DNA of 64,000 nt. Origin: Sulfurovum sp. XGS-02. Its GTDB lineage: Bacteria > Campylobacterota > Campylobacteria > Campylobacterales > Sulfurovaceae. Of the stretch, positions 7,287 to 51,657 are shown piece after piece. The position numbers and the translations under genes are program-made. Where the stretch lies: NCBI RefSeq assembly GCF_023213175.1, contig NZ_CP093312.1:558001-622000 (forward strand), read 5' to 3'. The notes under the pieces are model-generated. The model was not told the DNA's origin. It searched no databases and saw only the letters and a program-made list of their open reading frames with translations. Position 1 is the first letter of the stretch, and each line of letters opens with the position of its first letter.

Positions 7287-8972
7287 ATGAAAAGAACTAT
7301 TATTTTATTGACACTACTTCATTTCTTTGTAGGTTGTGGTAATAACTCTACATCAAATATATCTTCAGTACAGAGTTATATCCAGAATTTAGAAGTTGAG
7401 AATAATATCAGTTATGAGGAAATAATGAACACAAGAGGTTCCTATATTACTTCTATGTGTTACACAAAAACGATCGATCAAACTACAAATACTGTTTTTA
7501 ATCCATGCTATAGTTGTCATACGAAAGGTAAAATCCCAAATTATTATAATGATACCAATCTGCAAATGGAGTATAATTTTCCTGCGGAAGTGATGAAAAA
7601 TCCATTTATGAATCTTTTTAAAGATAGAAGCACGAAGGTTGCATTCATGACAGATAGTGCTACTTTAGCATATGTAAGACAATCCAATTATTTGAATCAT
7701 GAAGGAGAGATATTACCGACACAGGAACTTCCTATAGAGTGGAAAGGATATAGGCCTGACTGTTATTTTCATTTTGATGATGATGGATTTGATAAAGATC
7801 CTGAAGGTAAGTATACAGGTTGGAGAGCTTTTCGATATTATCCATTTTTAGGTACTTTTTGGCCAACCAATGGTTCAACTGATGATGTACTTATAAGACT
7901 CGATACCATTTTCAGACAAGATGAGAAGAATACATTTAGCAAAAAGATCTATTCGCTCAATTTAGCCATTGTAGAAGCATTGATAAAACAAAAAGAGATA
8001 GTACTTCCTTCGACCATAGATGAGAAGGTCTATGGTGTAGACCTTAATAGCAATGGCCTGTTAGATACAGCTTTTAGTATCTCTCCAATGGTTGAAAGTT
8101 ATGTAGGTTTGGCAAAATTATATCTTGGAGAAAATAAAGTACATTTGGCACAGGGACTTTTCCCTGAAAATACAGAGTTTTTACATTCTGTAAGATACAT
8201 AGACTGGGATGATGATAAAGAACAGATAGCTCTTTCAGCAAGAATGAAAGAACTACGTTATGCCAAAAAATATGCATGGAAGCGCTATGGAGAGATTGAA
8301 AGAGCAGCCCAGTCAGAATTTTTGGAAGCACTTGCACTTGATAACAGTACAGCAACTATGGCTTTTTTCAAGGGAAATTATGAAGAGGGATTACGAAATG
8401 AAATAGGATGGGTCTATCAAGGATTTATAGAAAATAAATCAGGAATACTAAGACCTCAGACACATGAGGAAACGATAGCTTGCATGGGATGCCATTCACA
8501 TCTTGGAGCCACAACAGATTCTACATTTGCATTTGCCCGTAAATTTGAAGGGAGTAAGAAAGATGAAAATGATTATGGATGGAATCATTGGAGTCAAAAA
8601 GGGCTTGATGGGGTCAAGGAACCATTAGTAGAATATCTAAATGATGGAAAACAGTATGAATACAGTTTCTACTTACAAAATAACCATTCTGCAAATGAAT
8701 TTCGAGACAATGATGAGGTACAACGTAAATTCTTTGATGCCAATGGAAGCATCAAGAAAGATATACTCAAGGCATTAAATGATGATATAACACTGCTACT
8801 CTTTCCTTCAAAAGAACGCGCTTTATCTTTAAATAAAGGGTATAAAGCAATCGTAGAGGAACAGAGTTATATCTATGGAAGAGATACACATATAAAACCA
8901 CTGAAGCATCTCTATAAGGTGATAAAAGAGGGACAGGTAACAGGGATAAAAAAACCTATAGTAAGGCCTTGA
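7287..8972 (+). CDS. Exported lipoprotein with two c-type haem motifs
   Basis: 561 residues starting with a short signal and a lipobox-like 'HFFVGCG' (Cys17). Two CxxCH haem-attachment motifs are present: CYSCH at 74-78 and CMGCH at 399-403, about 325 residues apart. The second lies in 'ETIACMGCHSHLGATTDSTFAFAR'-type context, typical of large di-haem or cytochrome-like surface proteins. No catalytic family is recognised beyond this. The lipid anchor, two haems and neighbouring PhoX-like lipoprotein suggest an envelope redox protein, though a terminator separates the two genes. Ends in a hairpin shared with the convergent ftsZ. Confidence 0.6.
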   Translation: MKRTIILLTLLHFFVGCGNNSTSNISSVQSYIQNLEVENNISYEEIMNTRGSYITSMCYTKTIDQTTNTVFNPCYSCHTKGKIPNYYNDTNLQMEYNFPAEVMKNPFMNLFKDRSTKVAFMTDSATLAYVRQSNYLNHEGEILPTQELPIEWKGYRPDCYFHFDDDGFDKDPEGKYTGWRAFRYYPFLGTFWPTNGSTDDVLIRLDTIFRQDEKNTFSKKIYSLNLAIVEALIKQKEIVLPSTIDEKVYGVDLNSNGLLDTAFSISPMVESYVGLAKLYLGENKVHLAQGLFPENTEFLHSVRYIDWDDDKEQIALSARMKELRYAKKYAWKRYGEIERAAQSEFLEALALDNSTATMAFFKGNYEEGLRNEIGWVYQGFIENKSGILRPQTHEETIACMGCHSHLGATTDSTFAFARKFEGSKKDENDYGWNHWSQKGLDGVKEPLVEYLNDGKQYEYSFYLQNNHSANEFRDNDEVQRKFFDANGSIKKDILKALNDDITLLLFPSKERALSLNKGYKAIVEEQSYIYGRDTHIKPLKHLYKVIKEGQVTGIKKPIVRP

Positions 8973-10200: not shown

Positions 10201-11589
10201 TTAAAAAAGCTGTCTTGCCCAACTCGCCAGTTTTTTAAACGGATTTCTATTTTCATGACCTAGGTCGGAAAGATCGTCAAATGAGATATCTGACTCTTCC
10301 TGATCTTTTTGGTTGTGTTCTTTCTCTTCTTTGTGACTTACGGCTGCCTGTACCTCTTCGGCATTCGAGGTATGGCCTATCCTGATGTCATTGAGGTTAT
10401 CTTCGAACATTGCCTTTGAGTGTAACAGCTCTTGCTGGAAATTTATCTCATATTGCGTATGACCGCCTGCTTTGTAGAGCAGTAACCCCACTACCGTTGA
10501 AAATGCCGGATCTTTGAGTTCATCAAAAAGACCATTGACATTATCTGGGTACCCCACTCTTACAGGCATACCGGTGAAGATGGCCTGTGCTAACTCTCTC
10601 ATACCTTTAAGCTTTGTCATACCTCCGGTCAAGATGATACCGGCACCGATCTGCTCTTTTAAGGCAGATTTTTCCAATGACTTGGAGAGGATCATCAGAG
10701 CCTCTTCTACACGTGAGAAGATCACAGAATGTACCACTTCCAAAGAGACACCGTTACGACTCTCTTCATCACCAATGATCGGGAGTTCTATGACTTCATT
10801 TGAACTCTCTATAAGACTCCCGTGACGTACTTTGACATTCTCGGCTATTTGTAAAGGTGTATGCAGTGCCATGGATAGGTCATTGGTGATGTGGTTTGAA
10901 CCTACACCCAGGAAATCATTGTATCGGATAGAGTTACCCGTATGTATGACAAGATTACTTGTTTGTCCACCCAGGTCTATCACAGCAACGCCAAGTTCTT
11001 TTTCATCTTCATCCATTGTCGCAATCGCAGAGGCATAACCGCTTAAGACAATACCGTCTATCTCAACACCCGCAGAGCGTACGGCTTTTTTAAGATTGGA
11101 AAGGTTTGATTTTTGTGTCATGATGATGTTGACATCTACTTCCATACGACTGGCATTCATACCGAAGGGATCTTCTATGAAGTCTTGATCATCTACTCTA
11201 AAGTTGTAAGGCAATACATGGATGACATCATACTCTGTAGGTACATTGGCATTGTAAAGGGCTGTTTGCATCACACGATTGATCTCTTTAATGGAGATAT
11301 CTTTATGCGGGATGTTGACAATACCTGTGGAGTTCAGACTCTTGGCATAGGCATTGGAGATAGAAACCGTGGCAGAAGTAATGTTACTGCCTGCAATACG
11401 TTTTGCATCGTTGATGGCTTTTTTGATAGATTTGGAAGCGAGTTCTATATTGGTGATCGCACCTTTCTTAACCCCTTGAGATTTAGAGATGCCATGTCCT
11501 TGAATGGTGACTTCGGAGTCTTGGATTTCAGCGATGATAGCGCATATTTTCGTGGAACCGATATCAATAGCTAAAATTGTGTCACTCAA
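10201..11589 (-). CDS. ftsA: Cell division protein FtsA
   Basis: 462 residues of the actin-like ATPase that anchors FtsZ to the membrane. Seen are the phosphate-1 loop 'ILAIDIGSTKICAII', the SHS2 region, 'GVAVIDLGGQTSNLVI' (phosphate 2), and 'GIILTGGMTKLKGM' (adenosine motif). The C-terminus ends in an amphipathic helix (FKKLASWARQLF) suitable for membrane binding. Translation starts at a TTG codon that overlaps the stop of the upstream PpiD-like gene (TTGA), behind GGGAGGG, so the two are coupled. A low-complexity acidic linker precedes the helix. Confidence 0.97.
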   Translation of the reverse strand: MSDTILAIDIGSTKICAIIAEIQDSEVTIQGHGISKSQGVKKGAITNIELASKSIKKAINDAKRIAGSNITSATVSISNAYAKSLNSTGIVNIPHKDISIKEINRVMQTALYNANVPTEYDVIHVLPYNFRVDDQDFIEDPFGMNASRMEVDVNIIMTQKSNLSNLKKAVRSAGVEIDGIVLSGYASAIATMDEDEKELGVAVIDLGGQTSNLVIHTGNSIRYNDFLGVGSNHITNDLSMALHTPLQIAENVKVRHGSLIESSNEVIELPIIGDEESRNGVSLEVVHSVIFSRVEEALMILSKSLEKSALKEQIGAGIILTGGMTKLKGMRELAQAIFTGMPVRVGYPDNVNGLFDELKDPAFSTVVGLLLYKAGGHTQYEINFQQELLHSKAMFEDNLNDIRIGHTSNAEEVQAAVSHKEEKEHNQKDQEESDISFDDLSDLGHENRNPFKKLASWARQLF

Positions 11590-38373: not shown

Positions 38374-38489
38374 CAAAATATTATAATGATTAAAAATTAA
38401 TCATATACCCATATACTATAGGATGAAATCTAGGCTATACTTTGAATACAAGACATGACATGAGGTTGTAAAATCTCAGATAAGTTAAA

Positions 38490-38592
38490 AGAGAACTAGG
38501 GTTCCGGCAGAGTATTCTGTGTCAGGTCCGAGAGTTTTCGACCTCTTGAGTAGAGGTTACACGGAGGGATAAAAGCCCGGGAGATTTATACC
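38490..38592 (+). ncRNA. Guanidine-I (ykkC) riboswitch
   Basis: The conserved core is unmistakable in order: CTAGGGTTCCG (38496-38506), GGTCCGAGAG (38525-38534), and ACGGAGGGATAAAAGCCCGG (38561-38580) followed by GAGA. These are the invariant segments of the ykkC subtype 1 aptamer, which binds guanidinium and turns on downstream genes. It lies 41 nt before the first gene of the guanidine operon. A TATACT box at 38436-38441 is a possible -10 element. Confidence 0.95.
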
Positions 38593-38608
38593 CTTTTGCC
38601 GTGTTTTA
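38559..38608 (+). terminator. Expression-platform hairpin of the guanidine-I riboswitch
   Basis: ACACGGAGGG (38559-38568) can pair with CCCT (38591-38594) and CCGTGT (38599-38604), followed by TTT. The left arm lies inside the conserved aptamer, so ligand binding would block this stem. This fits transcription-level ON control. Confidence 0.55.
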
Positions 38609-38632
38609 AACCAAATACTCAAGGAATCTCTT

Positions 38633-39703
38633 ATGAAACACTTTTTCAAATCCACATCAAAATTCTTAGTCGCCACTACATTGGTTATGGGTCTTAGTAC
38701 ATCATCACTTATGGCAGAGGTAAAAAATAAATTTCAAGTCTCCTGGACAATCTATGTCGGATGGATGCCGTGGGATTATGCTCAGCAAAAGGGCATCGTT
38801 GACAAATGGGCTAAAAAATACGATATCGAGATCGATCTAGTTCAGGTCAATGACTATATTGAATCGATCAACCAATACAGTGCTGGTAAATTTGATGGCT
38901 GTCTCATGACAAACATGGATGCATTGACGATTCCGGCTGCCGGTGGTATCGACTCAACTGCAGTGATCATGGGTGATTTCTCTAATGGTAATGACGGTCT
39001 TATTCTTAAAGATAAAAAGAGCCTAGCTGATATCAAAGGTCAGAAGGTAAACCTTGTTGAACTTTCAGTATCTCACTATTTCCTTGCACGTGCACTTGAG
39101 TCTGTGAATTTAAGTGAAAAAGACATCACGGTTGTAAACACTTCGGATGCCGATATGGTTTCTGCGTACAGTTCTGATGAAGTGACAGCAATGGCAACAT
39201 GGAATCCACAACTCAGTGAGATCATGACAAACAATAAAAGTGCCAACCTTGTCTATGATTCAAGTAAGATCCCGGGTGAGATTATCGATATGCTGGTTAT
39301 CAACACGGAAACACTCAAAGACAATCCGAAATTGGCAAAAGCATTGACAGGTGCTTGGTTTGAAGTGATGGCATTGATGAAAAAAGGGGATGAAAAAGCC
39401 TTGACATTTATGGCAGAGGCTTCAGGAACAGACCTTGCGGGTTACAAGAGCCAACTTGACTCTACAATGATGTTCTATGATGCAAGTGATGCAGTGACAT
39501 TTGCCGTTAGTCCAGATCTTCCAGAAACGATGAAAAAAGTGAGCGAGTTCTCATTTGATCACGGAATTCTTGGAGAGGGTGCACCAAATGCTGAATTCAT
39601 TGGTATGGAGTTCCCAGGTGGTAAAACGTTCGGTGATACCAACAACATCAAGCTTCGTTTCACAGAAACTTATGTGAAAATGGCTGCGGAAGGGAAGCTG
39701 TAA
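38633..39703 (+). CDS. ABC transporter substrate-binding protein, probable guanidine uptake
   Basis: 356 residues with a Sec signal peptide (MKHFFKSTSKFLVATTLVMG..., cleavage near LMAE). The mature protein resembles NMT1/taurine-nitrate type binding proteins of the urea-carboxylase-associated group: 'SWTIYVGWMPWDYAQQKGI', 'VNDYIESINQYSAGKFDGC' and 'ATWNPQLSEI'. It is the first gene after the guanidine-I riboswitch and is followed by permease and ATPase genes. Uptake of guanidine or a guanidine compound is inferred from the riboswitch and the catabolic genes downstream. Confidence 0.88.
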   Translation: MKHFFKSTSKFLVATTLVMGLSTSSLMAEVKNKFQVSWTIYVGWMPWDYAQQKGIVDKWAKKYDIEIDLVQVNDYIESINQYSAGKFDGCLMTNMDALTIPAAGGIDSTAVIMGDFSNGNDGLILKDKKSLADIKGQKVNLVELSVSHYFLARALESVNLSEKDITVVNTSDADMVSAYSSDEVTAMATWNPQLSEIMTNNKSANLVYDSSKIPGEIIDMLVINTETLKDNPKLAKALTGAWFEVMALMKKGDEKALTFMAEASGTDLAGYKSQLDSTMMFYDASDAVTFAVSPDLPETMKKVSEFSFDHGILGEGAPNAEFIGMEFPGGKTFGDTNNIKLRFTETYVKMAAEGKL

Positions 39704-39712
39704 GGTACTCCT

Positions 39713-40537
39713 ATGAAACGATTTATGAACCTTCGGCCATCAAGAGGAGCAACGCTCTTCTTGGGATTATTACCATTTATTATTGTCGCGGTGTTCTATC
39801 TCGTGGCATCTGATATGCGTCTTTCGGAAAATCCGAATGATAAGCTTCTGCCTTCCATGGCAAGCTTTTCAGAGGCTATCGACCGTATGGCATTTACACC
39901 AAGTAAACGAACAGGTGAAATACTTTTCATTGGAGATACGGTCTCTTCACTTGAACGATTAGGACTCGGGGTCCTCATAAGTGCTGTATTGGCAATGCTT
40001 ATCGGTATCCCTCTAGGGTTTATTCCCTTCCTTCGTGCAGGATTATCACCTTTTGTGGCGGCCTTTTCCATGGTCCCGCCCATGGCGATCCTGCCTATTT
40101 TGTTCATTGTGTTCGGTATGGGAGAGCTGGCAAAGGTTGCACTGATCGTCATCGGGGTGACACCTTTACTTGTCCGTGATATGCAGCAGCGTGTCTCTGA
40201 GATACCGGTGGAACAGCTTATTAAAGCGCAGACACTTGGAGGATCAAGCTGGACGATCGTGATGCGTGTTGTATTGCCACAGGTTTTCCCAAGACTGCTT
40301 GATGCAGTTCGTATCACACTGGGTACGGCATGGATCTTTCTTATTTCGGCAGAAGCGATCGCAGCTACCGAAGGTTTAGGATACCGTATCTTTTTGGTAC
40401 GCCGTTATATGTCAATGGATGTGATCCTGCCTTATGTAGCATGGATCACATTCCTTGCCTTCTTGTTCGATTTTGCCTTAAAGAAGCTGACCTATAAACT
40501 ATTCCCTTGGTATACAGCCGGAAAGGAGGGGGCATGA
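39713..40537 (+). CDS. ABC transporter permease, probable guanidine uptake
   Basis: 274 residues, six predicted helices, binding-protein-dependent permease fold. The EAA loop reads 'IPVEQLIKAQTLGGSSWTIVMRVVLP'-like (core 'QLIKAQTLGGSSW'). It belongs with SsuC/TauC type permeases of the urea-carboxylase-associated transporter. The stop codon overlaps the ATPase start (ATGA). Confidence 0.9.
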   Translation: MKRFMNLRPSRGATLFLGLLPFIIVAVFYLVASDMRLSENPNDKLLPSMASFSEAIDRMAFTPSKRTGEILFIGDTVSSLERLGLGVLISAVLAMLIGIPLGFIPFLRAGLSPFVAAFSMVPPMAILPILFIVFGMGELAKVALIVIGVTPLLVRDMQQRVSEIPVEQLIKAQTLGGSSWTIVMRVVLPQVFPRLLDAVRITLGTAWIFLISAEAIAATEGLGYRIFLVRRYMSMDVILPYVAWITFLAFLFDFALKKLTYKLFPWYTAGKEGA

Positions 40538-41298
40538 GTCTTATTCATATTAAAAACCTTTGGAAAAAGTATGATGACAATGTCGTATTGGAAAGAATCA
40601 ATCTTGATATCGAAGAGGGAGAGTTTTGTACGCTGGTCGGTCCCTCTGGCTGTGGAAAGAGTACATTCTTAAAAATGCTTCTTGGACAGGAGATACCCAC
40701 AAGTGGGACATTCCTTCTTGATGGGAAGCCTTTTCCTGACGAACCGGGAATAGAACGAGGTATCGTATTTCAGCGTTACTCTGTGTTTCCGCATTTAACG
40801 GTGTTGGGGAATGTAATGATGTCTATGGAACTCAAAGCGTCAAAATTTTTTGGGAAATTCTTTGGAACAAAGCGTAAAGAAGCTAAAGAGCGTGCCATGG
40901 AGATGCTTAGGTCAGTCGGTCTTGGTGATGCGGCAGATAAATACCCCAGCGAACTCTCAGGAGGTATGCAACAGCGTCTCTCTATTGCACAGTCATTGGT
41001 CACTAAACCAAAGATACTTTTGCTGGATGAACCATTTGGTGCCTTGGATCCGGGGATTCGTGCCGATATGCATAAGCTTATCTTGGATCTTTGGAAGAAG
41101 AACAATCTCACGATCGTGATGGTTACCCATGATCTTCATGAGAGCTTCTACCTTGGTACACGTCTGCTTGTCTTTGATAAGGTACGTTATGAACCGCAGG
41201 CACCTAACATGTACGGGGCATTAATCACGTATGACATACCTGTAGGTGATACAAGAGAATCAGTCTTAAAAGATGTAGAAGAATCTATAAATGAATAA
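40534..41298 (+). CDS. ABC transporter ATP-binding protein, probable guanidine uptake
   Basis: 254 residues from ATG 40534, which has AAGGAGG upstream and overlaps the permease stop. Walker A 'VGPSGCGKST', Q-loop 'VFQRYSVFPHLTV', signature 'LSGGMQQRLSIAQ', Walker B 'KILLLDEPFGALD' and H-loop 'VMVTHD' are all present. It powers the importer formed with the two preceding genes. The C-terminal ~45 residues go beyond the nucleotide-binding core, as in the SsuB/TauB relatives. Confidence 0.92.
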   Translation: MSLIHIKNLWKKYDDNVVLERINLDIEEGEFCTLVGPSGCGKSTFLKMLLGQEIPTSGTFLLDGKPFPDEPGIERGIVFQRYSVFPHLTVLGNVMMSMELKASKFFGKFFGTKRKEAKERAMEMLRSVGLGDAADKYPSELSGGMQQRLSIAQSLVTKPKILLLDEPFGALDPGIRADMHKLILDLWKKNNLTIVMVTHDLHESFYLGTRLLVFDKVRYEPQAPNMYGALITYDIPVGDTRESVLKDVEESINE

Positions 41299-41311
41299 AG
41301 GAATAACAACA

Positions 41312-42049
41312 ATGATAACAATGTATAAAGATATAAAACCGGAGAGTATCCTTTTTGATGAAGTACTTCCGGGAGGTGCCAGATGGTCAAAGATCATTAA
41401 GCGTGGCGACAAGCTTCGCATTACAACGAAAGATGGCTTAGGTTCTCTTTCAGCCATGTTCTACAATGCGGATAACACTGCTGAGCGTTTTAACTCAGCT
41501 GATACGGTAAAGATCCAGCATAATGCTTACTTCACGAAAGGAAGAGTACTCTACTCAGAACAGGGTCGTGTACTTTTCTCGATTACTGATGAGACAACAG
41601 GAGGGCTTTTTGACGCTATCGGCGGGATAAGCAATCCTCGTATTGTCCATAAGAATTTTGGAGAAGGTGACTACGAGCATTTGCGTAACCGTTATTACAA
41701 AAGTGACCGTGAAAACTTCCTGGTCGAACTGGGTAAATACGGTATGGGTAAACGTGATATGATCCAGGCGATCAACTTCTTTAGAAGAGTCGACGTCAAA
41801 GAGGGAAGTAAACTTGAACTCTCACCGGATCGTGCCAAACCGGGAAGCTACATTGACCTGCGTGCAGAGATGAACGTACTTTTGGTACTCTCAAACACAC
41901 CACATGTAATGGAAGCGGGTGAGTATAATCCAAGTGATGTACAATTGACACTTTATAAGGCACCCCCTGTGACCGAGGATGACCTATGTATGAACTTTAC
42001 ACCACAATCACAACGTGCTTTTATCAACAACGCACGTTATTTTGCCTAA
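41312..42049 (+). CDS. Carboxyguanidine deiminase subunit (DUF1989), non-cysteine type
   Basis: 245 residues from ATG 41312 (AAAGGA 8 nt upstream). Urea-carboxylase-associated family (DUF1989): 'EVLPGGARWSKIIKRGDKLRI', 'LSAMFYNADNTAERFNSADT', and 'YIDLRAEMNVLLVLSNTPHVM' near the end. In the guanidine pathway the paired DUF1989 proteins CgdA/CgdB convert carboxyguanidine to allophanate plus ammonia. Here the segment that reads TCGNHDTLGGHC in the partner is 'TTGGLFDAIGGI', so the Cys and His residues are missing. It is probably the structural or substrate-shaping subunit. Confidence 0.85.
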   Translation: MITMYKDIKPESILFDEVLPGGARWSKIIKRGDKLRITTKDGLGSLSAMFYNADNTAERFNSADTVKIQHNAYFTKGRVLYSEQGRVLFSITDETTGGLFDAIGGISNPRIVHKNFGEGDYEHLRNRYYKSDRENFLVELGKYGMGKRDMIQAINFFRRVDVKEGSKLELSPDRAKPGSYIDLRAEMNVLLVLSNTPHVMEAGEYNPSDVQLTLYKAPPVTEDDLCMNFTPQSQRAFINNARYFA

Positions 42050-42056
42050 GGAGAGA

Positions 42057-42680
42057 ATGATGAGCAGAGATATTAAAGATGCAGTATACAATGAAAAGGT
42101 GGCAGCCGGTGTACCTTGGAGCCATGTGGTCAAAAAAGGCCAAACCCTTCGTATCATCGATCTTAAAGGGTGTCAGGCAGTCGATACGCTTTTTTACAAT
42201 GCAAACGACCATGAAGAGCGTTATTCAGCCAACGACACGGTGAGAGAACAGGGAAGCATTTTTGTGACAACAGGAACAAAACTGATCTCAACAGATGACA
42301 ATGTGATGATGGAAGTGACAGAAGATACCTGTGGTAACCATGACACACTGGGTGGTCACTGCAGTGCAGAGAGTAACACGGTACGTTATGCACTTGATAC
42401 CAAATATATGCACAGTTGCCGTGACAACTACCTCTATGAGATCGGTGAGCTGGAGATGGACCCAAGAGACCTTACCAACAACATCAACTTCTTTATGAAC
42501 GTTCCGGTTGAAGATGACGGTTTCCTTGTGATCGTAGACGGTGTCTCCAAACCTGGCGACTATGTGGACCTGAAAGCTGAGATGGATACCTTGGTACTGG
42601 TTTCTAACTGTCCGCAGTTGAACAACCCGTGCAACGCCTACGATCCATCTCCTGTTCAAATGGTAATCTGGGACGATTAA
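42057..42680 (+). CDS. Carboxyguanidine deiminase subunit (DUF1989), with conserved Cys/His site
   Basis: 207 residues from ATG 42057 (or 42060), behind AAGGAGAGA. Second DUF1989 protein: 'GVPWSHVVKKGQTLRIIDLK', 'AVDTLFYNANDHEERYSAND', then 'TCGNHDTLGGHCSAESN', which holds Cys, His and Cys suited to metal binding or catalysis. The end 'YVDLKAEMDTLVLVSNCPQLN' is typical. With the preceding gene it should form the heteromeric carboxyguanidine deiminase. The two proteins share the same fold, so the pair arose by duplication. Confidence 0.88.
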   Translation: MMSRDIKDAVYNEKVAAGVPWSHVVKKGQTLRIIDLKGCQAVDTLFYNANDHEERYSANDTVREQGSIFVTTGTKLISTDDNVMMEVTEDTCGNHDTLGGHCSAESNTVRYALDTKYMHSCRDNYLYEIGELEMDPRDLTNNINFFMNVPVEDDGFLVIVDGVSKPGDYVDLKAEMDTLVLVSNCPQLNNPCNAYDPSPVQMVIWDD

Positions 42681-42684
42681 GATC

Positions 42685-43692
42685 ATGGCAAAGCTACGTG
42701 GTTACTTTCGTTTTGAGGATGCACTCATCCCCAATATGTTAGCCTGGAGTTATATACTGGCAGCATACATCGGTGGTTTTTACGCCATCATGTCAGATGC
42801 CATTATCTATAACCTTGTAGGAACTGTTTTGCTTGCACACAGTATGGTGATCTCAGCCTATTTCGTACATGAGTGTGCTCACGATTCACTCTTTAAGAAG
42901 AACCGTCATAATCATCTCTTCGGTGAGATCTTTCTCTGGATAGCCGGTGCTTCGTACAGTGAGTATGAAGCGGTCAGACATAAACATGTACGACATCATA
43001 TGGATAGGGCAGATATCGTCTCATTTGATTTTAGAACGAGGCTGCAGATGTACCCTAAACTGCTTAAGGTGATCCAGGCATTGGAGTGGATGTATATTCC
43101 TGCATTGGAGATCATGATGCATGTATTGGTGATCTTATTGCCTTTTGTAAAAGAGTCACGTAAGCATCTGCGTTCCCGTGTGGTCACGGTACTGTTGCTG
43201 CGTATCGCATTTTTTGCGCTTTTGGCATCTGTTTCGTTGAAGATTTTGGTATTTTATCCACTCGCATATATGCTCTTTTTGACAGTGATGCGTTTTATGG
43301 ATGTCCATCAGCATACGTATGATCTTTATGAAACGCTGGATCGCAAACGCGGTGATGAGGTCAAGCAGTATGACAGTGTGTTTGAAAAACACAATACATA
43401 TTCGAACTTATTATCTAGACGTTATCCGTGGTTGAACCTTCTGGTACTGAACTTTGCGTACCATAACGTACATCATGACCAGCAGATGCAGCCCTGGTAT
43501 CGTCTGCCTAGATTGCATGAAAAACTCTATGGTAAGGATGAGAGCCAGGTACTGCTGTTTAAAAACCTTATCGAGAGTTACCATCGTTTCCGTGTGGCCC
43601 GTATCATTAATTCAGATTCTACTGGTATAGATGTACATAAAGGTAAAGATTTCATAGGCGTAGATGGCGTTTCATTTTTGACGGCTCATTAA
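42685..43692 (+). CDS. Membrane di-iron desaturase/hydroxylase-type protein
   Basis: 335 residues with several transmembrane helices. All histidine boxes of the fatty acid desaturase / AlkB membrane di-iron family are present: HECAH (62-66), HKHVRHH (99-105), a middle 'DVHQHTYD', and HNVHH (260-264). Such enzymes use O2 to desaturate or hydroxylate an alkyl chain. It sits inside the guanidine operon, 4 nt after the deiminase gene, and is not part of the known guanidine pathway. A role in hydroxylating an alkyl-substituted guanidine to release guanidine is possible but is inference. Alternatively it acts on membrane lipids. Confidence 0.85.
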   Translation: MAKLRGYFRFEDALIPNMLAWSYILAAYIGGFYAIMSDAIIYNLVGTVLLAHSMVISAYFVHECAHDSLFKKNRHNHLFGEIFLWIAGASYSEYEAVRHKHVRHHMDRADIVSFDFRTRLQMYPKLLKVIQALEWMYIPALEIMMHVLVILLPFVKESRKHLRSRVVTVLLLRIAFFALLASVSLKILVFYPLAYMLFLTVMRFMDVHQHTYDLYETLDRKRGDEVKQYDSVFEKHNTYSNLLSRRYPWLNLLVLNFAYHNVHHDQQMQPWYRLPRLHEKLYGKDESQVLLFKNLIESYHRFRVARIINSDSTGIDVHKGKDFIGVDGVSFLTAH

Positions 43693-43701
43693 GGAGAGAA
43701 T

Positions 43702-44484
43702 ATGACACAAGTGAAAAAATTTTGGCCGATCCTGACAGGCACACACCGTTACGAGAAAACACTCTCTACACGCGGTCATGGCAAAGGTGTGATCATAGAT
43801 GCGCCGATCTTGGCCTATCTTATCGAGACGGCCAACGGGCGTATCCTCTATGATGTGGGATGTGATTACAATAAGATCGCTGATGAGGTGAAACGCAAGC
43901 ACTTCTACGAACATGAGGGGTTCCCTTTCGGTCCTCCTCAGATGACTGAGGAGCAGCGTCTTCCCAACCGTCTGGCGGAACTTGGCTTGAAGACAGAAGA
44001 TGTGGATGTCGTCTTTTGCGGCCATCTCCACTTTGATCATGCCGGAGGTGTTTGTGAGTTCTGTAATGCCGAAGTCCATGTACATGAAAAGGAGCTCGAA
44101 GCAGCAAGAGAGCCTGCGGATGAAGCCTATTTTGCAGAAGATCTGGATTGCCCGATCAATTGGCGTATTTACAAAGGTGAGTATGACCTTGTTCCTGGTG
44201 TCCGTGCCATCGAGACACCGGGACACACGGCCGGTCATATGTCAATGATGATCGAACTGCCAAAGGGCAAACCGATCCTGCTTGCAGGGGATGCTGCAGA
44301 CCTAAGTGAGAACCTTGAAAAAGAGATCGCTCCGGGTCTGTGTTGGCAGGATAATGAAGCTATGGCGATCGAGAGTATTCGTAAGCTTAAAGAGCTTGCA
44401 TATCGTACAGGGGCAGAGATCTGGCCCAATCATGATATGCAGTATTTTGAATCTAAAAACCGTTTCCCACGGTTTTTTTCCTAA
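43702..44484 (+). CDS. Metallo-beta-lactamase-fold hydrolase, N-acyl homoserine lactonase family
   Basis: 260 residues. The zinc motif HLHFDH occupies 108-113, followed by 'IETPGHTAGHMSMMI' and 'LLAGDAADL', and 'IWPNHDMQYF' at the end. The pattern is that of the AiiA/AHL lactonase-like branch of the MBL superfamily. These hydrolyse lactones or related esters. It is encoded 9 nt after the desaturase-like gene, with AAGGAG upstream. The substrate is unknown; it may process a product of the neighbouring oxygenase-like protein. Confidence 0.85.
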   Translation: MTQVKKFWPILTGTHRYEKTLSTRGHGKGVIIDAPILAYLIETANGRILYDVGCDYNKIADEVKRKHFYEHEGFPFGPPQMTEEQRLPNRLAELGLKTEDVDVVFCGHLHFDHAGGVCEFCNAEVHVHEKELEAAREPADEAYFAEDLDCPINWRIYKGEYDLVPGVRAIETPGHTAGHMSMMIELPKGKPILLAGDAADLSENLEKEIAPGLCWQDNEAMAIESIRKLKELAYRTGAEIWPNHDMQYFESKNRFPRFFS

Positions 44485-44506
44485 GGTATGAAAGAACCAC
44501 TCTTTC

Positions 44507-44552
44507 CGTTTCATAAGACGGCTTATGAAATGTAAACGTTCGGGACGGCCCG
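44507..44552 (+). ncRNA. Guanidine-II (mini-ykkC) riboswitch inside the operon
   Basis: Two successive hairpins each carry the loop ACGG, the defining feature of this class (ACGR loops). Hairpin 1: TTTCATAAG-ACGG-CTTATGAAA (44509-44530), extendable by G-T and C-G to 44507-44532. Hairpin 2: CGGG-ACGG-CCCG (44541-44552). The linker is 8-10 nt. The ribosome site AAGGA of the carboxylase gene begins 12 nt after hairpin 2, which fits translational control. Each loop is known to bind guanidinium. Confidence 0.88.
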
Positions 44553-44575
44553 TAAACTAATTCTAAGGACATAAA

Positions 44576-47500
44576 ATGTTTACCAAAATATTAATCGCTA
44601 ATCGCGGTGAGATCGCTTGTCGTGTCATACGTACACTGAAGAAGATGGATATTCGATCCGTTGTTGTCTATACGGCTGCTGATACTGACTCCCTTCATGT
44701 CAGTCTTGCTGATGAAGCATACTATATCGGTCATGGTGTTGCCAGTGAAAGTTACTTGGATACGGAAAAGATTCTGAATATCGCGATCAAGAGCGGTGCA
44801 GAGGCGGTTCATCCAGGATATGGATTTCTCAGCGAAAATGCAGCTTTCGCCAATGCATGTGAGGCAGCAGGTATCCGTTTTATAGGTCCACGTACCGAAC
44901 ATATGGAGCAGTTTGGTCTTAAGCATACGGCCCGAGCACTTGCCGAACAGAACTCTGTACCACTTCTTCCTGGATCTTCTATTTTGAGTGATCTTGAGGA
45001 AGCGAAGAGCGAAGCGAAACGTATCGTCTACCCGGTGATGTTAAAGAGTACAGCCGGGGGTGGTGGTATCGGTATGCAGCTGTGTTATGATGAAAATGAG
45101 TTGTGCAGTGCCTATGAATCGGTCAAACGTTTAAGTGAGAACAACTTCTCTGATGGAGGAATGTTCTTAGAAAAGTATGTGGCTTCGGCACGTCATATCG
45201 AAGTACAGATCTTTGGAGACGGTAAGGGATATGTGGCTGTACTGGGAGACAGAGACTGTTCGGTCCAGCGCCGTAACCAAAAGGTGATAGAGGAGACGCC
45301 AGCACCGGGTATCGCTGATGCAACGAGAGAGGCACTTTACAAAGCGGCAAAAGATCTGACTGCATCGGTCTCTTATCTCTCAGCGGGTACTGTGGAGTTT
45401 GTGTACGACACCACTACGGATGAATTCTACTTCCTTGAAGTGAACACACGACTTCAAGTAGAGCATGGTATCACAGAGGAAGTGACAGGTGTGGATTTGG
45501 TGGAGTGGATGATCCGTCAAGCCTATGGAGAGAATCCTGGACTCTACAGCTATGAACATGCTCCAGAGGGACACGCTATGCAGGTGCGTATCTATGCGGA
45601 AGACCCTTCCAAGAACTTTCAGCCTAGTTCAGGTGTGTTGACCAACGTTAAATTTGCCGAGGGTATACGATGTGATACCTTTATCGAAACAGGCCTTGAA
45701 GTCTCTGCTTTCTATGATCCGATGATCGCAAAGCTTATCATTAAAGGTAAAGACCGTGAAGAAGCATTGAATATGATCAATGATGCTATAGAAAATACAG
45801 AAATAGACGGGATAGAGACCAACTTACGTTATTTAGGGGCTATCGTTAGATCTGATATCTTTAAAGATGGAGTACAGACGACAAAATATCTCAACACGTT
45901 TGATTTTACGCCAAATAGCATCGATGTACTTCGTCCTGGTACACAGACTACTATACAGGATTTTCCTGGACGTACGGGTTACTGGGATATCGGTGTACCG
46001 CCTTCAGGTCCTTTTGATAACTTCAGTTTCCGCTATGCCAACCGTATCGTAGGAAATGATGCAGCAGCTTCAGGTATGGAGATAGCAATCGCCGGTCCCA
46101 CACTGCGTTTTAACACAGACAGTGTTATAGCCCTGTGCGGAGCAGAGATCGATGCGTTCCTGGATGGTGAAGCGATCGGGATGAATGAAGCGGTAGATGT
46201 CAAAGCAGGTAGTACGCTTAAACTTAAAAAAGTGCATAATCAAGGCTTTAGAACCTACCTGGCCGTACGCGGTGGTTTTGATGTGCCTGAATACCTTGGA
46301 AGCCGTTCTACTTTTACCTTGGGACAGTTCGGGGGACATGCAGGCCGTACACTGATCTCGGGTGATGTACTGCATATCGGTTCTATGATTGATGGTGAGA
46401 CAGCGAAGCAGAAAACAGTCCCACATGAAAATTTTGAGAACCGCTGGGAGATAGGGGTGCTTTACGGACCGCATGGTGCACCTGATTTCTTTACCGACAG
46501 TGACATCAAGACCTTTTTTGAGATAGAGTGGGAGATCCATTATAACTCCAACCGTACCGGTATACGTTTGATCGGTCCTAAGCCTGAATGGGCAAGAACA
46601 GATGGAGGTGAGGCAGGACTTCATCCTTCTAATATTCACGACAATGCCTATGCGATAGGATCGGTGGACTTCACGGGAGATATGCCGGTGATCCTGGGGC
46701 CTGACGGTCCGAGTTTGGGAGGTTTTGTCTGCCCTGTGACGATTATCAATGCAGAGCTGTGGAAAATGGGTCAACTTCGTGCGGGGGACAAGGTAAAATT
46801 TGTTCCTGTAGAGCATGAGACTGCCATGGAGATGATCAAAGCCCAAGATAACGCCATTACTGAGCTTGAGACCTATGATGAAAAAACATTCCTTGCACCT
46901 AAACCGATAGGTACGCCTATTCTCTATAGTGATGAGGGAGAGAAAGATCTTCCTTCCATAGTTATACGTCAGTCGGGAGACAGCAACCTACTGGTCGAGT
47001 ATGGAGAGATGGAACTGGATATCTCTTTACGTTTCAGAGTACATGTGTTGATGGAAGCACTTAAAGAAGCAGCGATCGAAGGTGTGAGCGATATCACCCC
47101 GGGGATACGCTCTTTGCAGATACACTTTGAACCAAGGGTGTGCGATAGGTCGGCGCTTATCGAACGTTTAAAAGAGATAGAGTTGACACTTCCGTCGATC
47201 GATGATATCGAAGTGCCTTCACGTATTGTACACTTGCCGTTATCATGGGATGATGAATCAACCCGTGTTGCGATCGACAAGTATATGAAAACAGTGCGTG
47301 CCGATGCCCCATGGTGCCCGAGCAATATCGAGTTCATCCGACGTATGAACGGATTGAAGAGTATCGACGATGTCAGAGAGATCGTCTTTGGTGCAAACTA
47401 TGTGGTCATGGGACTGGGAGATGTCTATCTGGGAGCACCGGTTGCCACACCGCTTGATCCAAGACACCGTCTGGTAACGACAAAATACAATCCTGCCCGT

Positions 47501-48175
47501 ACCTGGACCCCTGAGAATGCTGTAGGTATCGGTGGTGCCTATATGTGTGTGTATGGGATGGAAGGACCTGGAGGCTACCAGTTTGTCGGACGTACGGTAC
47601 AGATGTGGAATCGTTATAGACAAACATCGAACTTCACAGAGGATAAACCGTGGCTGCTGCGTTTCTTTGATCAGATCAAGTTTTATGAAGTGAGTGCAGA
47701 TGAACTCCATCAGATGCGTGAAGATTTCCCAAGAGGACGTGTGGAGATCAAAGTGGAAGAGACCACTTTCAGTTTGAAGAAATATAAGGATTTCCTAGCC
47801 CAAAATGAGGCATCGATAAAGAGCTTTAAAAAGACACAGCAGGAAGCATTTGAGGAAGAGCGTCAAATGTGGGAACGTACCGGACTCGCAAACTTTACTA
47901 CGGTTAGTGAAGAGATAGAAGAACAGAGTATGGAACGTATCGAGATCGCTGAGAATGCTGAAGCTGTCGAATCTCCGGTTCAGGGAAGCCTCTGGAAGGT
48001 GATGGCCAAGTTGGGAGATGTGGTCGAAGAGGGTGAAGTACTTGCTATCGCGGAGTCTATGAAAATGGAAGTAGATATCGAAGCACCTGAACATGGAAAG
48101 ATCACGCAGGTACTCTGTAGTGAAGGTGAGAATATTCAGGCGGGTAAAACGCTTTTTGTGATTGAACCTGTATAA
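44576..48175 (+). CDS. Guanidine (urea) carboxylase, biotin-dependent
   Basis: 1199 residues, full length for the family. Domains in order: biotin carboxylase (~1-450; ATP-grasp '[14 protein letters not shown]', '[20 protein letters not shown]'), AHS2/KipA-like carboxyltransferase half (~455-760, '[20 protein letters not shown]'), AHS1/KipI-like half (~795-1030), then a linker and a biotin-carrier domain with biotin lysine K1163 in '[13 protein letters not shown]'. It carboxylates the substrate with ATP and bicarbonate. Annotated relatives are called urea carboxylase. Two guanidine riboswitches and a DUF1989 pair make guanidine the expected substrate, giving carboxyguanidine. It is preceded by its own guanidine-II riboswitch. 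Confidence 0.95.
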
Positions 48176-48186
48176 GTGTGTCTGTG

Positions 48187-49035
48187 ATGAAAATAGAACA
48201 CTTTAAGACAATGTGGGGGTTTGAAGGCGACTTTGAAACAGCGTGTATTCAAGCCCAAGAGAAAGGTTTCAAGGGGATAGAAGGGCAAGCCCCCAAAACT
48301 AAAGAGGAGCGTGCATACTGGAAAGCATGCCTGGAAAAGTACGGGCTTGACTATATTGGTGAGATCGTCACAGGAGGAGATTATGTTCCTTCACGACACC
48401 AGAGCGTGCAAGCACATATCGATGATGTGCAAAGTGCGATAGAGAATGCTTTGGAACTCAATCCGCGTTTTATGAGCTGTCTGGGAGGGCTTGATGCCTG
48501 GAGCGATGAGGAGTTCATTCTATTTTTCACAGGTGCAATGGAGCATGCGAGAAAGCATGATCTGCAGATTGTGTTTGAAACACATCGCAGCCGTATTCTC
48601 TTTACGCCCTGGAGAACCAGAGAGATAACAGAGGCACTGCCTCAGATCAAACTGACACTTGATATCAGCCATTGGTGTGTGGTATGTGAGCGTCTGATGA
48701 GTACCGAGCTTGAAACGATCAGAGCGATCGCTCCTCATGTTTATCATATACATGGGCGTGTCGGCTATGACCAGGGACCGCAAGTGCCTCACCCGGGTGC
48801 ACCTGAGTACAAAGAGGCGCTGCTCTCGCACCAGGAGGTATGGGAGATCATCTGGGATGCACAGCAGACTAAGGGTATGGAGATCACAACGATGACACCG
48901 GAGTTTGGACCAGACGGCTATCTGCATACACTCCCCTTTACCAATGCACCTGTTGCTGATCTTTGGGAGCTGAACTGCTGGATGGCAGAGTGTGAGAAGG
49001 AGCATTTTAATGGTTACACCAAAAAAAGGGTCTGA
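48187..49035 (+). CDS. Xylose isomerase-like TIM barrel protein (sugar phosphate isomerase/epimerase family)
   Basis: 282 residues from ATG 48187 (a GTG at 48178 is also possible; no strong ribosome site for either). AP-endonuclease-2/xylose isomerase fold: 'GFKGIEGQAPKTKEERAYW', 'IVFETHRSRILFTPWR', 'IKLTLDISHWCVVCERL', 'HVYHIHGRVGYDQGPQ' and 'EITTMTPEFGPDGY'. The Glu, Asp/His, His and Glu residues in these strands match the metal ligands of the fold. It lies 11 nt after the carboxylase gene and is in the operon. No such protein belongs to the known guanidine pathway; substrate unknown. Confidence 0.8.
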   Translation: MKIEHFKTMWGFEGDFETACIQAQEKGFKGIEGQAPKTKEERAYWKACLEKYGLDYIGEIVTGGDYVPSRHQSVQAHIDDVQSAIENALELNPRFMSCLGGLDAWSDEEFILFFTGAMEHARKHDLQIVFETHRSRILFTPWRTREITEALPQIKLTLDISHWCVVCERLMSTELETIRAIAPHVYHIHGRVGYDQGPQVPHPGAPEYKEALLSHQEVWEIIWDAQQTKGMEITTMTPEFGPDGYLHTLPFTNAPVADLWELNCWMAECEKEHFNGYTKKRV

Positions 49036-49036
49036 T

Positions 49037-49924
49037 ATGAGAGCACATCTACCCGTGATCGTACTTTTAGGTGCTTCGATACTATGGGGTTTGACATGGA
49101 TTCCGCTTAAGAGCATCAATACCATGGGGATAGACGGCATCCCGCTGATCTTCTTTACCTACGGTATGATGGCACTGATCTTAAGCCCAATACTCATGAA
49201 GCAGTTTTCCATATGGAGAGAGCATAAAAAGATGATGTTTCTTATCGCACTCTTTGGGGGCAGTGCAAACCTTGCCTTCTCTTACGCACTGATCAACGGT
49301 GAAGTGATACGGGTGATGGTACTCTTCTATCTTCTACCAGTATGGGGTGTGGCTGGAGGACGGCTCTTTTTAAAAGAGACGATCGACAGATGGCGCTATC
49401 TTGGTGTTTTGTTGGCGATCAGCGGCGCATTTTTAATCCTTGGCGGGTTTGAAGTGCTTGATACACCGCCGTCTTGGATAGACCTTGTCGCACTCGCTTC
49501 AGGGCTCTTCTTTGCAATGAACAACCTTCTTTTCCGTGCCGTGCAGTCGATACCTGTAGCTTCAAAGATCGGTAGTATGTTCATAGGGTGTTTTACACTC
49601 GCAGCACTCTTCTTGTATGCAGGGGTAGAGCAGCTTCCAAGCGGTATCACTGATGATGCATGGATTCTTCTTGCAGGGTATGCGCTCTTTTGGCTGTTTG
49701 TGGCAAATATAGGATCGCAGTGGAGCGTGACGCATATGGATGCGGGGCGTTCGTCGATCATTATTATTTTAGAACTCATTACAGCAGTTATTTCTGCCAC
49801 CCTGATCGCAGGGGAGACGATGAGCACGATAGAAACTATCGGGGGTGCACTGATCATCATGGCTGCGTTTATAGAAGCGCTACGTACTCAAGATGATGAT
49901 GAACCTGTTACTACGATGAATTAG
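49037..49924 (+). CDS. EamA/DMT family transporter
   Basis: 295 residues from ATG 49037, 1 nt after the preceding stop, with AAAGGG upstream. Ten predicted helices in two EamA repeats, e.g. 'VIVLLGASILWGLTWIPLKS' at the start and 'SIIIILELITAVISATLIAG' near the end. The DMT superfamily includes the small SMR guanidinium exporters, but this is the long 10-helix type. It may export guanidine or a product, or import a precursor. Direction and cargo cannot be read from sequence. Confidence 0.85.
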   Translation: MRAHLPVIVLLGASILWGLTWIPLKSINTMGIDGIPLIFFTYGMMALILSPILMKQFSIWREHKKMMFLIALFGGSANLAFSYALINGEVIRVMVLFYLLPVWGVAGGRLFLKETIDRWRYLGVLLAISGAFLILGGFEVLDTPPSWIDLVALASGLFFAMNNLLFRAVQSIPVASKIGSMFIGCFTLAALFLYAGVEQLPSGITDDAWILLAGYALFWLFVANIGSQWSVTHMDAGRSSIIIILELITAVISATLIAGETMSTIETIGGALIIMAAFIEALRTQDDDEPVTTMN

Positions 49925-49940
49925 AATGAAAGGAATAGAG

Positions 49941-51278
49941 ATGAATATAGAAAAATTACAACAATTATATAAAGAGAAAACACTCACACCTAGAGAGTAT
50001 ATGAAGCAGATCAAAGAGAATATTGAAGCACATGCAGAGAACCCGATCTGGATCTACGTGCTGAGTGAGAGCGAACTGGAGCCTTATTTAGCAAAGCTTG
50101 AAAGCTGCAAAGTGGAGAGCCTGCCACTTTATGGGATCCCTTTTGCGATTAAAGACAACATTGATCTAGAAGGGGTAGCAACGACGGCAGCATGTGAAGA
50201 GTACAGTTATATTGCTGAGAAGTCTGCTTATGTAGTGCAGAAGCTGATCGAAGCAGGAGCGATCCCGGTGGGGAAGACCAACCTTGACCAGTTCGCTACG
50301 GGACTGGTGGGTACCCGTTCACCTTATGGAGCGTGCCAGAACAGCATAGACCCTAAGTATATCTCAGGGGGATCAAGCTCAGGTTCGGCGGTAAGTATCG
50401 CGCTTGATATGGCTATCTTCTCTCTGGGGACAGATACGGCAGGTTCAGGGCGTGTGCCTGCTGCATTCAACAACCTAGTGGGGCTTAAGCCATCCAAGGG
50501 TGTGTTGAGTACTTCGGGTGTGGTGCCTGCCTGTCGAAGTCTGGACTGTGTTTCGATCTTTGCGAAAACCACTGAAGATACACAGAAGGTTTTTGATGTA
50601 GCTGCTTCATTTGATGCAGAGGATCCGTACAGTCGACCTATGCCTGTGATAGAAAAAAATGTTCCATCCTCTTTTCGCTTTGCCATTCCTAAAGAAGATC
50701 AGTTAAAGTTTTTTGGGGACAGTGAGGCAGAAGCACTTTACCGAAAAGCAGTGAAAACATTTGAAGAGATGGGTGGAACGGCTGTAGAGATCGACTTCTC
50801 ACCTATGCTTGAAGCGGCAAATCTACTCTATTACGGACCGTGGGTTGCTGAGCGTTATGTAGCAGTGAAGGAGATGATAGAAACGATGCCTGAACGCCTC
50901 ATCGATGTGACAAGAACGATCATAGAATCCGGAAAAACGAAGAGTGCAGAGGATTACTTTAACGCTGAATACAAGATCAAAGCCTATAAACGCCAGGGAG
51001 ATCTACTTATGAAAGAGATTGACTTTGCACTGACTCCGACCACGGGGACGATCTATACGATAGAAGAGGTCAATGCAGACCCTATACAGCTGAACACGAA
51101 TCTTGGCTACTACACCAACTTCATGAACCTGCTTGACTTCTCTGCCTATGCTGTTCCTGCAGGATTTAGAGAGAACGGTCTTCCGTTTGGTGTGACACTC
51201 TTTGCTGACGCTTTTGAAGACAGAAAGCTTATGGAGCTGGGTGAATCTTACATACAAAAGGCTTCCCATGGAAAATAA
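49941..51278 (+). CDS. atzF: Allophanate hydrolase, amidase part
   Basis: 445 residues from ATG 49941 (AAAGGA 6 nt upstream). Amidase-signature triad at the spacing of AtzF: Lys71 ('PFAIKDNIDLEG'), Ser145 ('SGGSSSGSAVS') and nucleophile Ser169 ('TDTAGSGRVPAA'). It deaminates allophanate to N-carboxycarbamate, which falls apart to CO2 and ammonia. Full AtzF proteins have ~600 residues with a second C-terminal domain; here the chain stops after the amidase domain. The missing domain is encoded separately by the overlapping next gene. Confidence 0.93.
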   Translation: MNIEKLQQLYKEKTLTPREYMKQIKENIEAHAENPIWIYVLSESELEPYLAKLESCKVESLPLYGIPFAIKDNIDLEGVATTAACEEYSYIAEKSAYVVQKLIEAGAIPVGKTNLDQFATGLVGTRSPYGACQNSIDPKYISGGSSSGSAVSIALDMAIFSLGTDTAGSGRVPAAFNNLVGLKPSKGVLSTSGVVPACRSLDCVSIFAKTTEDTQKVFDVAASFDAEDPYSRPMPVIEKNVPSSFRFAIPKEDQLKFFGDSEAEALYRKAVKTFEEMGGTAVEIDFSPMLEAANLLYYGPWVAERYVAVKEMIETMPERLIDVTRTIIESGKTKSAEDYFNAEYKIKAYKRQGDLLMKEIDFALTPTTGTIYTIEEVNADPIQLNTNLGYYTNFMNLLDFSAYAVPAGFRENGLPFGVTLFADAFEDRKLMELGESYIQKASHGK

Positions 51279-51657
51279 AACGATAGAGATAGCCGTCTGC
51301 GGCGCACACATGACAGGTCTGCCGCTCAATTACCAACTCGCTGAGTTGGATGCAACATTTGTTAAAGCAACGAAAACAGACAAGATCTACCGTCTTTACG
51401 AAGTGCCTGAGAAGGTACCACCCCGCCCGGGTATGATACGCGATACACAAAACGGTTCATCCCTGGAACTGGAAGTATGGTCCATGCCTCTGGAGAACTT
51501 CGGTGCTTTCATGATACAGATTGCCGAGCCTCTTGGTATCGGAACAGTGATCTTGGAAGATGGAAGTTCTGTGTATGGCTTCTTGTGTGAGAGTGATCCG
51601 ATCAAGGATGCGAAAGAGATCACATCTTATGGTGGCTGGAGAGCTTATATCTCGTAA
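51268..51657 (+). CDS. Allophanate hydrolase C-terminal domain as a separate protein
   Basis: 129 residues from ATG 51268, overlapping the amidase stop by 11 nt. It matches the C-terminal domain of AtzF (gamma-glutamylcyclotransferase-like fold): 'EIAVCGAHMTGLPLNYQLAE', 'YRLYEVPEKVPPRPGM', 'LEVWSMPLENFGAFM' and 'IGTVILEDGSSVYGFLCE'. In AtzF this domain has been linked to decarboxylation of N-carboxycarbamate. It is the last gene of the guanidine operon. Confidence 0.88.
   Translation: MENKTIEIAVCGAHMTGLPLNYQLAELDATFVKATKTDKIYRLYEVPEKVPPRPGMIRDTQNGSSLELEVWSMPLENFGAFMIQIAEPLGIGTVILEDGSSVYGFLCESDPIKDAKEITSYGGWRAYIS

Follow-up and report, generated by a model that had tools for sequence, protein, structure and literature searches.

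This study examined a window of 64,000 nucleotides in which a pair of short hairpins precedes a guanidine carboxylase gene. On sequence evidence, this element (44507-44552) is a real guanidine-II riboswitch within a dual-riboswitch guanidine operon, and the preliminary description, which had placed guanidine-II inside an operon headed by guanidine-I, is supported by Rfam matches, covariation and recurrence in relatives. The element very probably serves as an ON switch for carboxylase translation in a guanidine-assimilation operon. Both aptamers were observed, as were their conservation and covariation, the gene content of the operon, and a conserved complementarity between the guanidine-I P2 strand and a Shine-Dalgarno (SD) sequence. 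Counted against the explanation were a sub-cut-off model score, the ACGG/ACGG loops, and an SD that is mostly open in the predicted free fold.

Table 1. Features of the guanidine operon in the window, and paired guanidine-II elements in three related operons (L021-L023, own coordinates).
Feature	Position	Strand	Basis
Guanidine-I riboswitch aptamer	38485..38585	+	Rfam RF00442, 91.5 bits (cut-off 63), full length
Aptamer P2 strand TCTTGAGTA, candidate anti-SD	38544..38552	+	9-bp complementarity to 38616-38624, covarying
TACTCAAGGA, SD region of substrate-binding protein gene	38616..38625	+	Masked in predicted ligand-free fold
ABC importer genes: substrate-binding protein, permease, ATPase	38633..41298	+	TIGR03427, 556.7 bits (substrate-binding protein); ABC family matches
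Carboxyguanidine deiminase subunits UAAP1/UAAP2 (CgdA/B)	41291..42680	+	TIGR03425, 291 bits; TIGR03424, 342.7 bits; subunit identity by literature
Accessory genes: PF00487 desaturase-like, MBL-fold lactonase-like	42685..44484	+	Family matches
Extra hairpin P0, GAAAGA-ACCAC-TCTTTC, directly 5' of P1	44490..44506	+	Recurrent in order
Guanidine-II P1 hairpin	44507..44532, ACGG loop 44518-44521	+	Sequence reading, Rfam alignment, covariation
P1-P2 linker TAAACGTT	44533..44540	+	Sequence reading
Guanidine-II P2 hairpin, CGGG-ACGG-CCCG	44541..44552, ACGG loop 44545-44548	+	Sequence reading, Rfam alignment, covariation
AAGGA SD of carboxylase gene	44565..44569	+	Sequence reading
Guanidine carboxylase, 1199 aa	44576..48175	+	TIGR02712, 1932 bits; D698 and D949
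Accessory genes: xylose isomerase-like TIM barrel, EamA transporter	48178..49924	+	Family matches
Allophanate hydrolase and separate AH_C domain protein	49926..51657	+	TIGR02713, PF21986
L021, two guanidine-II elements	8259-8303, about 11525-11572		
L022, two guanidine-II elements	8250-8294, 11520-11561		
L023, two guanidine-II elements	8254-8298, about 11520-11567		

The hairpin pair and its conservation

Direct reading confirmed the ACGG-loop hairpin pair as first described, with stems of 9-11 bp and 4 bp, a linker of 8-10 nt, and 12 nt between the end of P2 and the AAGGA; the carboxylase ATG (44576) follows P2 at 23 nt. P1 (CGTTTCATAAG-ACGG-CTTATGAAATG) forms 11 pairs, nine of them in a tight core (44509-44530), and the linker is 8 nt, or 10 nt when P1 is taken as 9 bp, within the 7-40 nt expected of RF01068. 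Further features by which that family is recognized were also found, namely two ACGR-tetraloop hairpins, stems that covary in relatives, and a position before a guanidine carboxylase. Full-length alignment of 44510-44552 to Rfam RF01068 (guanidine-II, mini-ykkC) gave 28.7 bits (E 0.018, 4227 Rfam families against 13 kb), the sole match in the 2.19-Mb genome at E<=10 (whole-genome E 7e-4). The Rfam search proposed beforehand recovered ykkC (RF00442) at 91.5 bits, and mini-ykkC as the only match in the genome but under the gathering score of 32 bits, so that the window element taken alone is sub-threshold.

A carboxylase-core search of 299 genomes of the order recovered 16 with the operon, the window's genome included, and no match among the other listed genomes of the window's genus and family. 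In the 15 other operons (carboxylase-core identity 57-89%), guanidine-I always lay upstream of the importer and two ACGR hairpins always lay directly 5' of the carboxylase (15/15 in each case), and both ACGR loops were invariant in 16/16 operons. Guanidine-II sites exceeded the RF01068 cut-off in nine of the 15 relatives, homologous positions reaching 32-39.7 bits. Across an alignment of 14 sequences, 97.3% of P1/P2 cells were paired, double-sided changes occurred at 9 of 13 pairs, and the covariation score was 0.617, compared with 0.228 in shuffles (0/500) and <=0.16 in slid controls. The comparison with homologous operons suggested in the preliminary description returned covarying stems and retained ACGR loops, with no loop loss in relatives.

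A degenerate guanidine-II whose function has been lost would account for the score of 28.7 bits under the 32-bit cut-off, the AU-rich P1, and the presence of ACGG in both loops, a combination reported as rarer and weaker (PMC9300104). Such decay is improbable, as P1 forms a fully paired helix of 9-11 bp, P2 is intact, and P1 covaries across relatives, and therefore selection has kept it. That the hairpins are not guanidine sensors at all, and instead stabilize mRNA or arose by chance, is scarcely credible; an extra hairpin (P0) does lie 5' of P1, and intergenic hairpins are able to act in mRNA processing, yet in 16/16 operons the ACGR loops are unchanged and closed by G-C pairs. P0 itself is a recurrent feature of the order (mean best stem 5.7 pairs versus 4.1 shuffled), and is not recurrent in Pseudomonadota (3.7 versus 4.0).

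Candidate expression platforms

In the published guanidine-II model, the linker masks the ribosome-binding site unless it is stretched by the kissing of the loops. On a message from presumably co-transcribed operon genes, guanidinium binding would bring the two ACGG loops to kiss, which would stretch the linker and open the ribosome-binding/start region of the carboxylase, making guanidine-II a putative ON switch for its translation. The proposal that guanidine-II gates carboxylase translation stands as regards position and fit to the published model, but the sequence did not reveal the expression platform.

The linker GTAAACGTT (44532-44540) is complementary to AATGTTTAC (44575-44583) across the start codon, with 9 pairs (shuffle P 0.01 in the window). 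Strong complementarity of this kind was confined to the window and to relatives L020 and L031 (P 0.01-0.02); that in L029 was weaker (0.05), and the remaining operons of the order compared had none. Even in the predicted free fold the carboxylase SD is largely exposed (0.72 unpaired), and opening of the linker in the model raised AUG accessibility only from 0.10 to 0.23. Masking of the SD by the linker was rejected as a general guanidine-II platform, there being no conserved anti-SD in the linker and small or nil effects in accessibility modelling. The 3' arm of P0 was discarded as an anti-SD, its complementarity being no better than that of shuffles, and so was a terminator-like AACCGT-ttccc-ACGGTTTTTTT 5' of guanidine-II, which lies in the coding end of the MBL gene, has a different form in relatives, and drew no call from the scanner. 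At 44462-44482, just 5' of guanidine-II, a terminator-like hairpin with a T run coincides with the end of the MBL gene; it is not the same in relatives and may have arisen as a by-product of the codons there.

The guanidine-I aptamer, the only RF00442 match over cut-off in the genome, has a P2 strand, TCTTGAGTA, that stands opposite TACTCAAGG (38616-38624; shuffle P 0.004) in the SD region of the first gene. Duplex energy between P2 strand and SD was better than in shuffles in 14/14 leaders of the order (P<=0.006). Among the other leaders of the order, 95% of anti-SD helix cells were paired, with both-sided changes at two positions, and slid controls reached <=50%; the window's own copy is shifted by one base, so that it was partly counted as mispaired in the covariation alignment. 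Similar complementarity was found outside the order in 13 of 47 leaders at P<=0.02. Structure prediction for the free window leader places the SD inside a long hairpin, and when the aptamer was imposed on the model the SD was still paired, with other bases.

A translational rather than transcriptional guanidine-I is favoured for this lineage from these comparisons, because the P2 strand complements the SD of the first gene in every aligned leader and there is no long U-tract. Guanidinium would hold the aptamer together and keep the P2 strand off the SD of the first importer gene, presumably the ON state. The preliminary description had instead assigned transcription to guanidine-I. A division of labour of this kind, in which guanidine-I works by transcription termination and guanidine-II by translation, would agree with the general literature, where guanidine-I is called transcriptional (PMC12186494, PMC9094411), with the proposal made for the Vreelandella operon (PMC12508155), and with an alternative stem ACACGG/CCGTGT 3' of the aptamer, after which the window has a TTTT run. 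A long U-tract after that stem was not found in leaders of the order, which have just 2-4 consecutive T/U there, and covarying pairing of the P2 strand with the SD is present in 14/14 aligned operon leaders; the transcriptional role is thus doubtful, and the division of labour rather unlikely. A possible, still tentative extension of the translational reading is that the dual operon of the order is wholly translational, guanidine-I P2 masking the importer SD and the guanidine-II linker masking the carboxylase start codon, with a third aptamer (guanidine-II before CgdA) in some members, giving one guanidine gate per metabolic step on one mRNA.

Operon genes and additional aptamers

Residue D698 of the carboxylase aligns to N1330 of Kluyveromyces lactis urea amidolyase and D949 to D1584. 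Asp at these two K. lactis positions is the residue pair used to call guanidine carboxylases (PMC11410670), and by alignment the enzyme has both, which marks it as a guanidine rather than a urea carboxylase. In one relative (L030, 4527-8130) the carboxylase frame is interrupted, the longest open frame being 670 aa, and the guanidine-II element is intact. The operon (38485-51657) has a G+C content of 0.44-0.48 versus 0.35-0.41 in nearby flanks, and was likely acquired horizontally from outside, because its G+C lies above that of the flanks and it is absent in close kin. The accessory genes of the window (desaturase-like, MBL lactonase-like, TIM-barrel, and EamA) recur beside the guanidine pathway in L021-L023, and their products may act on some guanidino compound other than guanidine.

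The operons of L021-L023, all from one genus, carry three aptamers, with guanidine-I at the head, guanidine-II before UAAP1, and guanidine-II before the carboxylase. An extra guanidine-I was seen in L018 (12495-13914) before an ORF of 428 aa resembling an outer-membrane porin, just 5' of the guanidine-I that belongs to the importer, and also in L019 and L020, the ORF having been read in L018 only; its placement suggests a guanidine-induced porin. In another genus of the order (L117, f8 g15, 1501-1882), guanidine-II lies directly before a 105-aa SMR (SugE/Gdx-like) exporter gene.

Distribution and comparison with known systems

Among 80 named loci of more distant origin, mostly from Pseudomonadota, a strict pattern placed guanidine-II before the carboxylase in at least 27, and at least 23 of those 27 also had guanidine-I upstream in the operon, both counts being lower bounds; Rfam guanidine-II was present in 28 of the 44 genomes of this set. 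The initial belief that no case of both classes in one operon had been described was wrong, as such operons are published in PMC12508155 and PMC12186494. The homologous operon of Vreelandella boliviensis begins with guanidine-I and has guanidine-II in the gap from cgdB to the carboxylase gene; in-line probing gave a KD of 44 uM for guanidine-I, with guanidine only, and of 93 uM for guanidine-II, which bound guanidine and methylguanidine equally, and the authors proposed a model combining transcriptional and translational control (PMC12508155). The same paper states the dual operon for several other bacteria, and PMC12186494 gives the same guanidine-I and guanidine-II layout for Raoultella, Erwinia, and Klebsiella. 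A targeted literature search found no paper on guanidine riboswitches in Campylobacterota, a weak indication given its limited journal coverage. The present data extend the dual operon to a further bacterial order, with comparative support there, and suggest guanidine-I as a translational switch in this lineage. The three-aptamer operons are naturally suited to exploring why a single message should sense one ligand several times.

Compared with RF01068, the window element shares the two hairpins, ACGR loops, a linker of 8-10 nt, and the position just 5' of the ribosome-binding site, but differs in its AU-rich P1, ACGG in both loops, the extra 5' hairpin P0, and the lack of an obvious anti-SD in the linker. 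The V. boliviensis operon has in common with that of the window the guanidine-I head, guanidine-II 5' of the carboxylase, ABC importer, CgdA/B, and allophanate hydrolase. As extra genes it has a methylguanidine hydroxylase and a lyase, whereas those of the window are desaturase-like, MBL, TIM-barrel, and EamA genes, the first two intervening between CgdB and guanidine-II; guanidine-I is thought to be transcriptional there, and looks translational in the window lineage. Raoultella, Erwinia, and Klebsiella resemble the window in having importer and deiminase with guanidine-I, and carboxylase and allophanate hydrolase with guanidine-II, but belong to another bacterial group, and accessory genes go unmentioned in the available part of PMC12186494. 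Since the pairing of guanidine-I with guanidine-II has already been described in other bacteria, it is a known, conserved, and ordinary arrangement, found here in a further lineage with a few new details, of which the less expected are the three-aptamer operons in one genus, the lineage-specific P0 and, tentatively, the pairing between linker and start codon.
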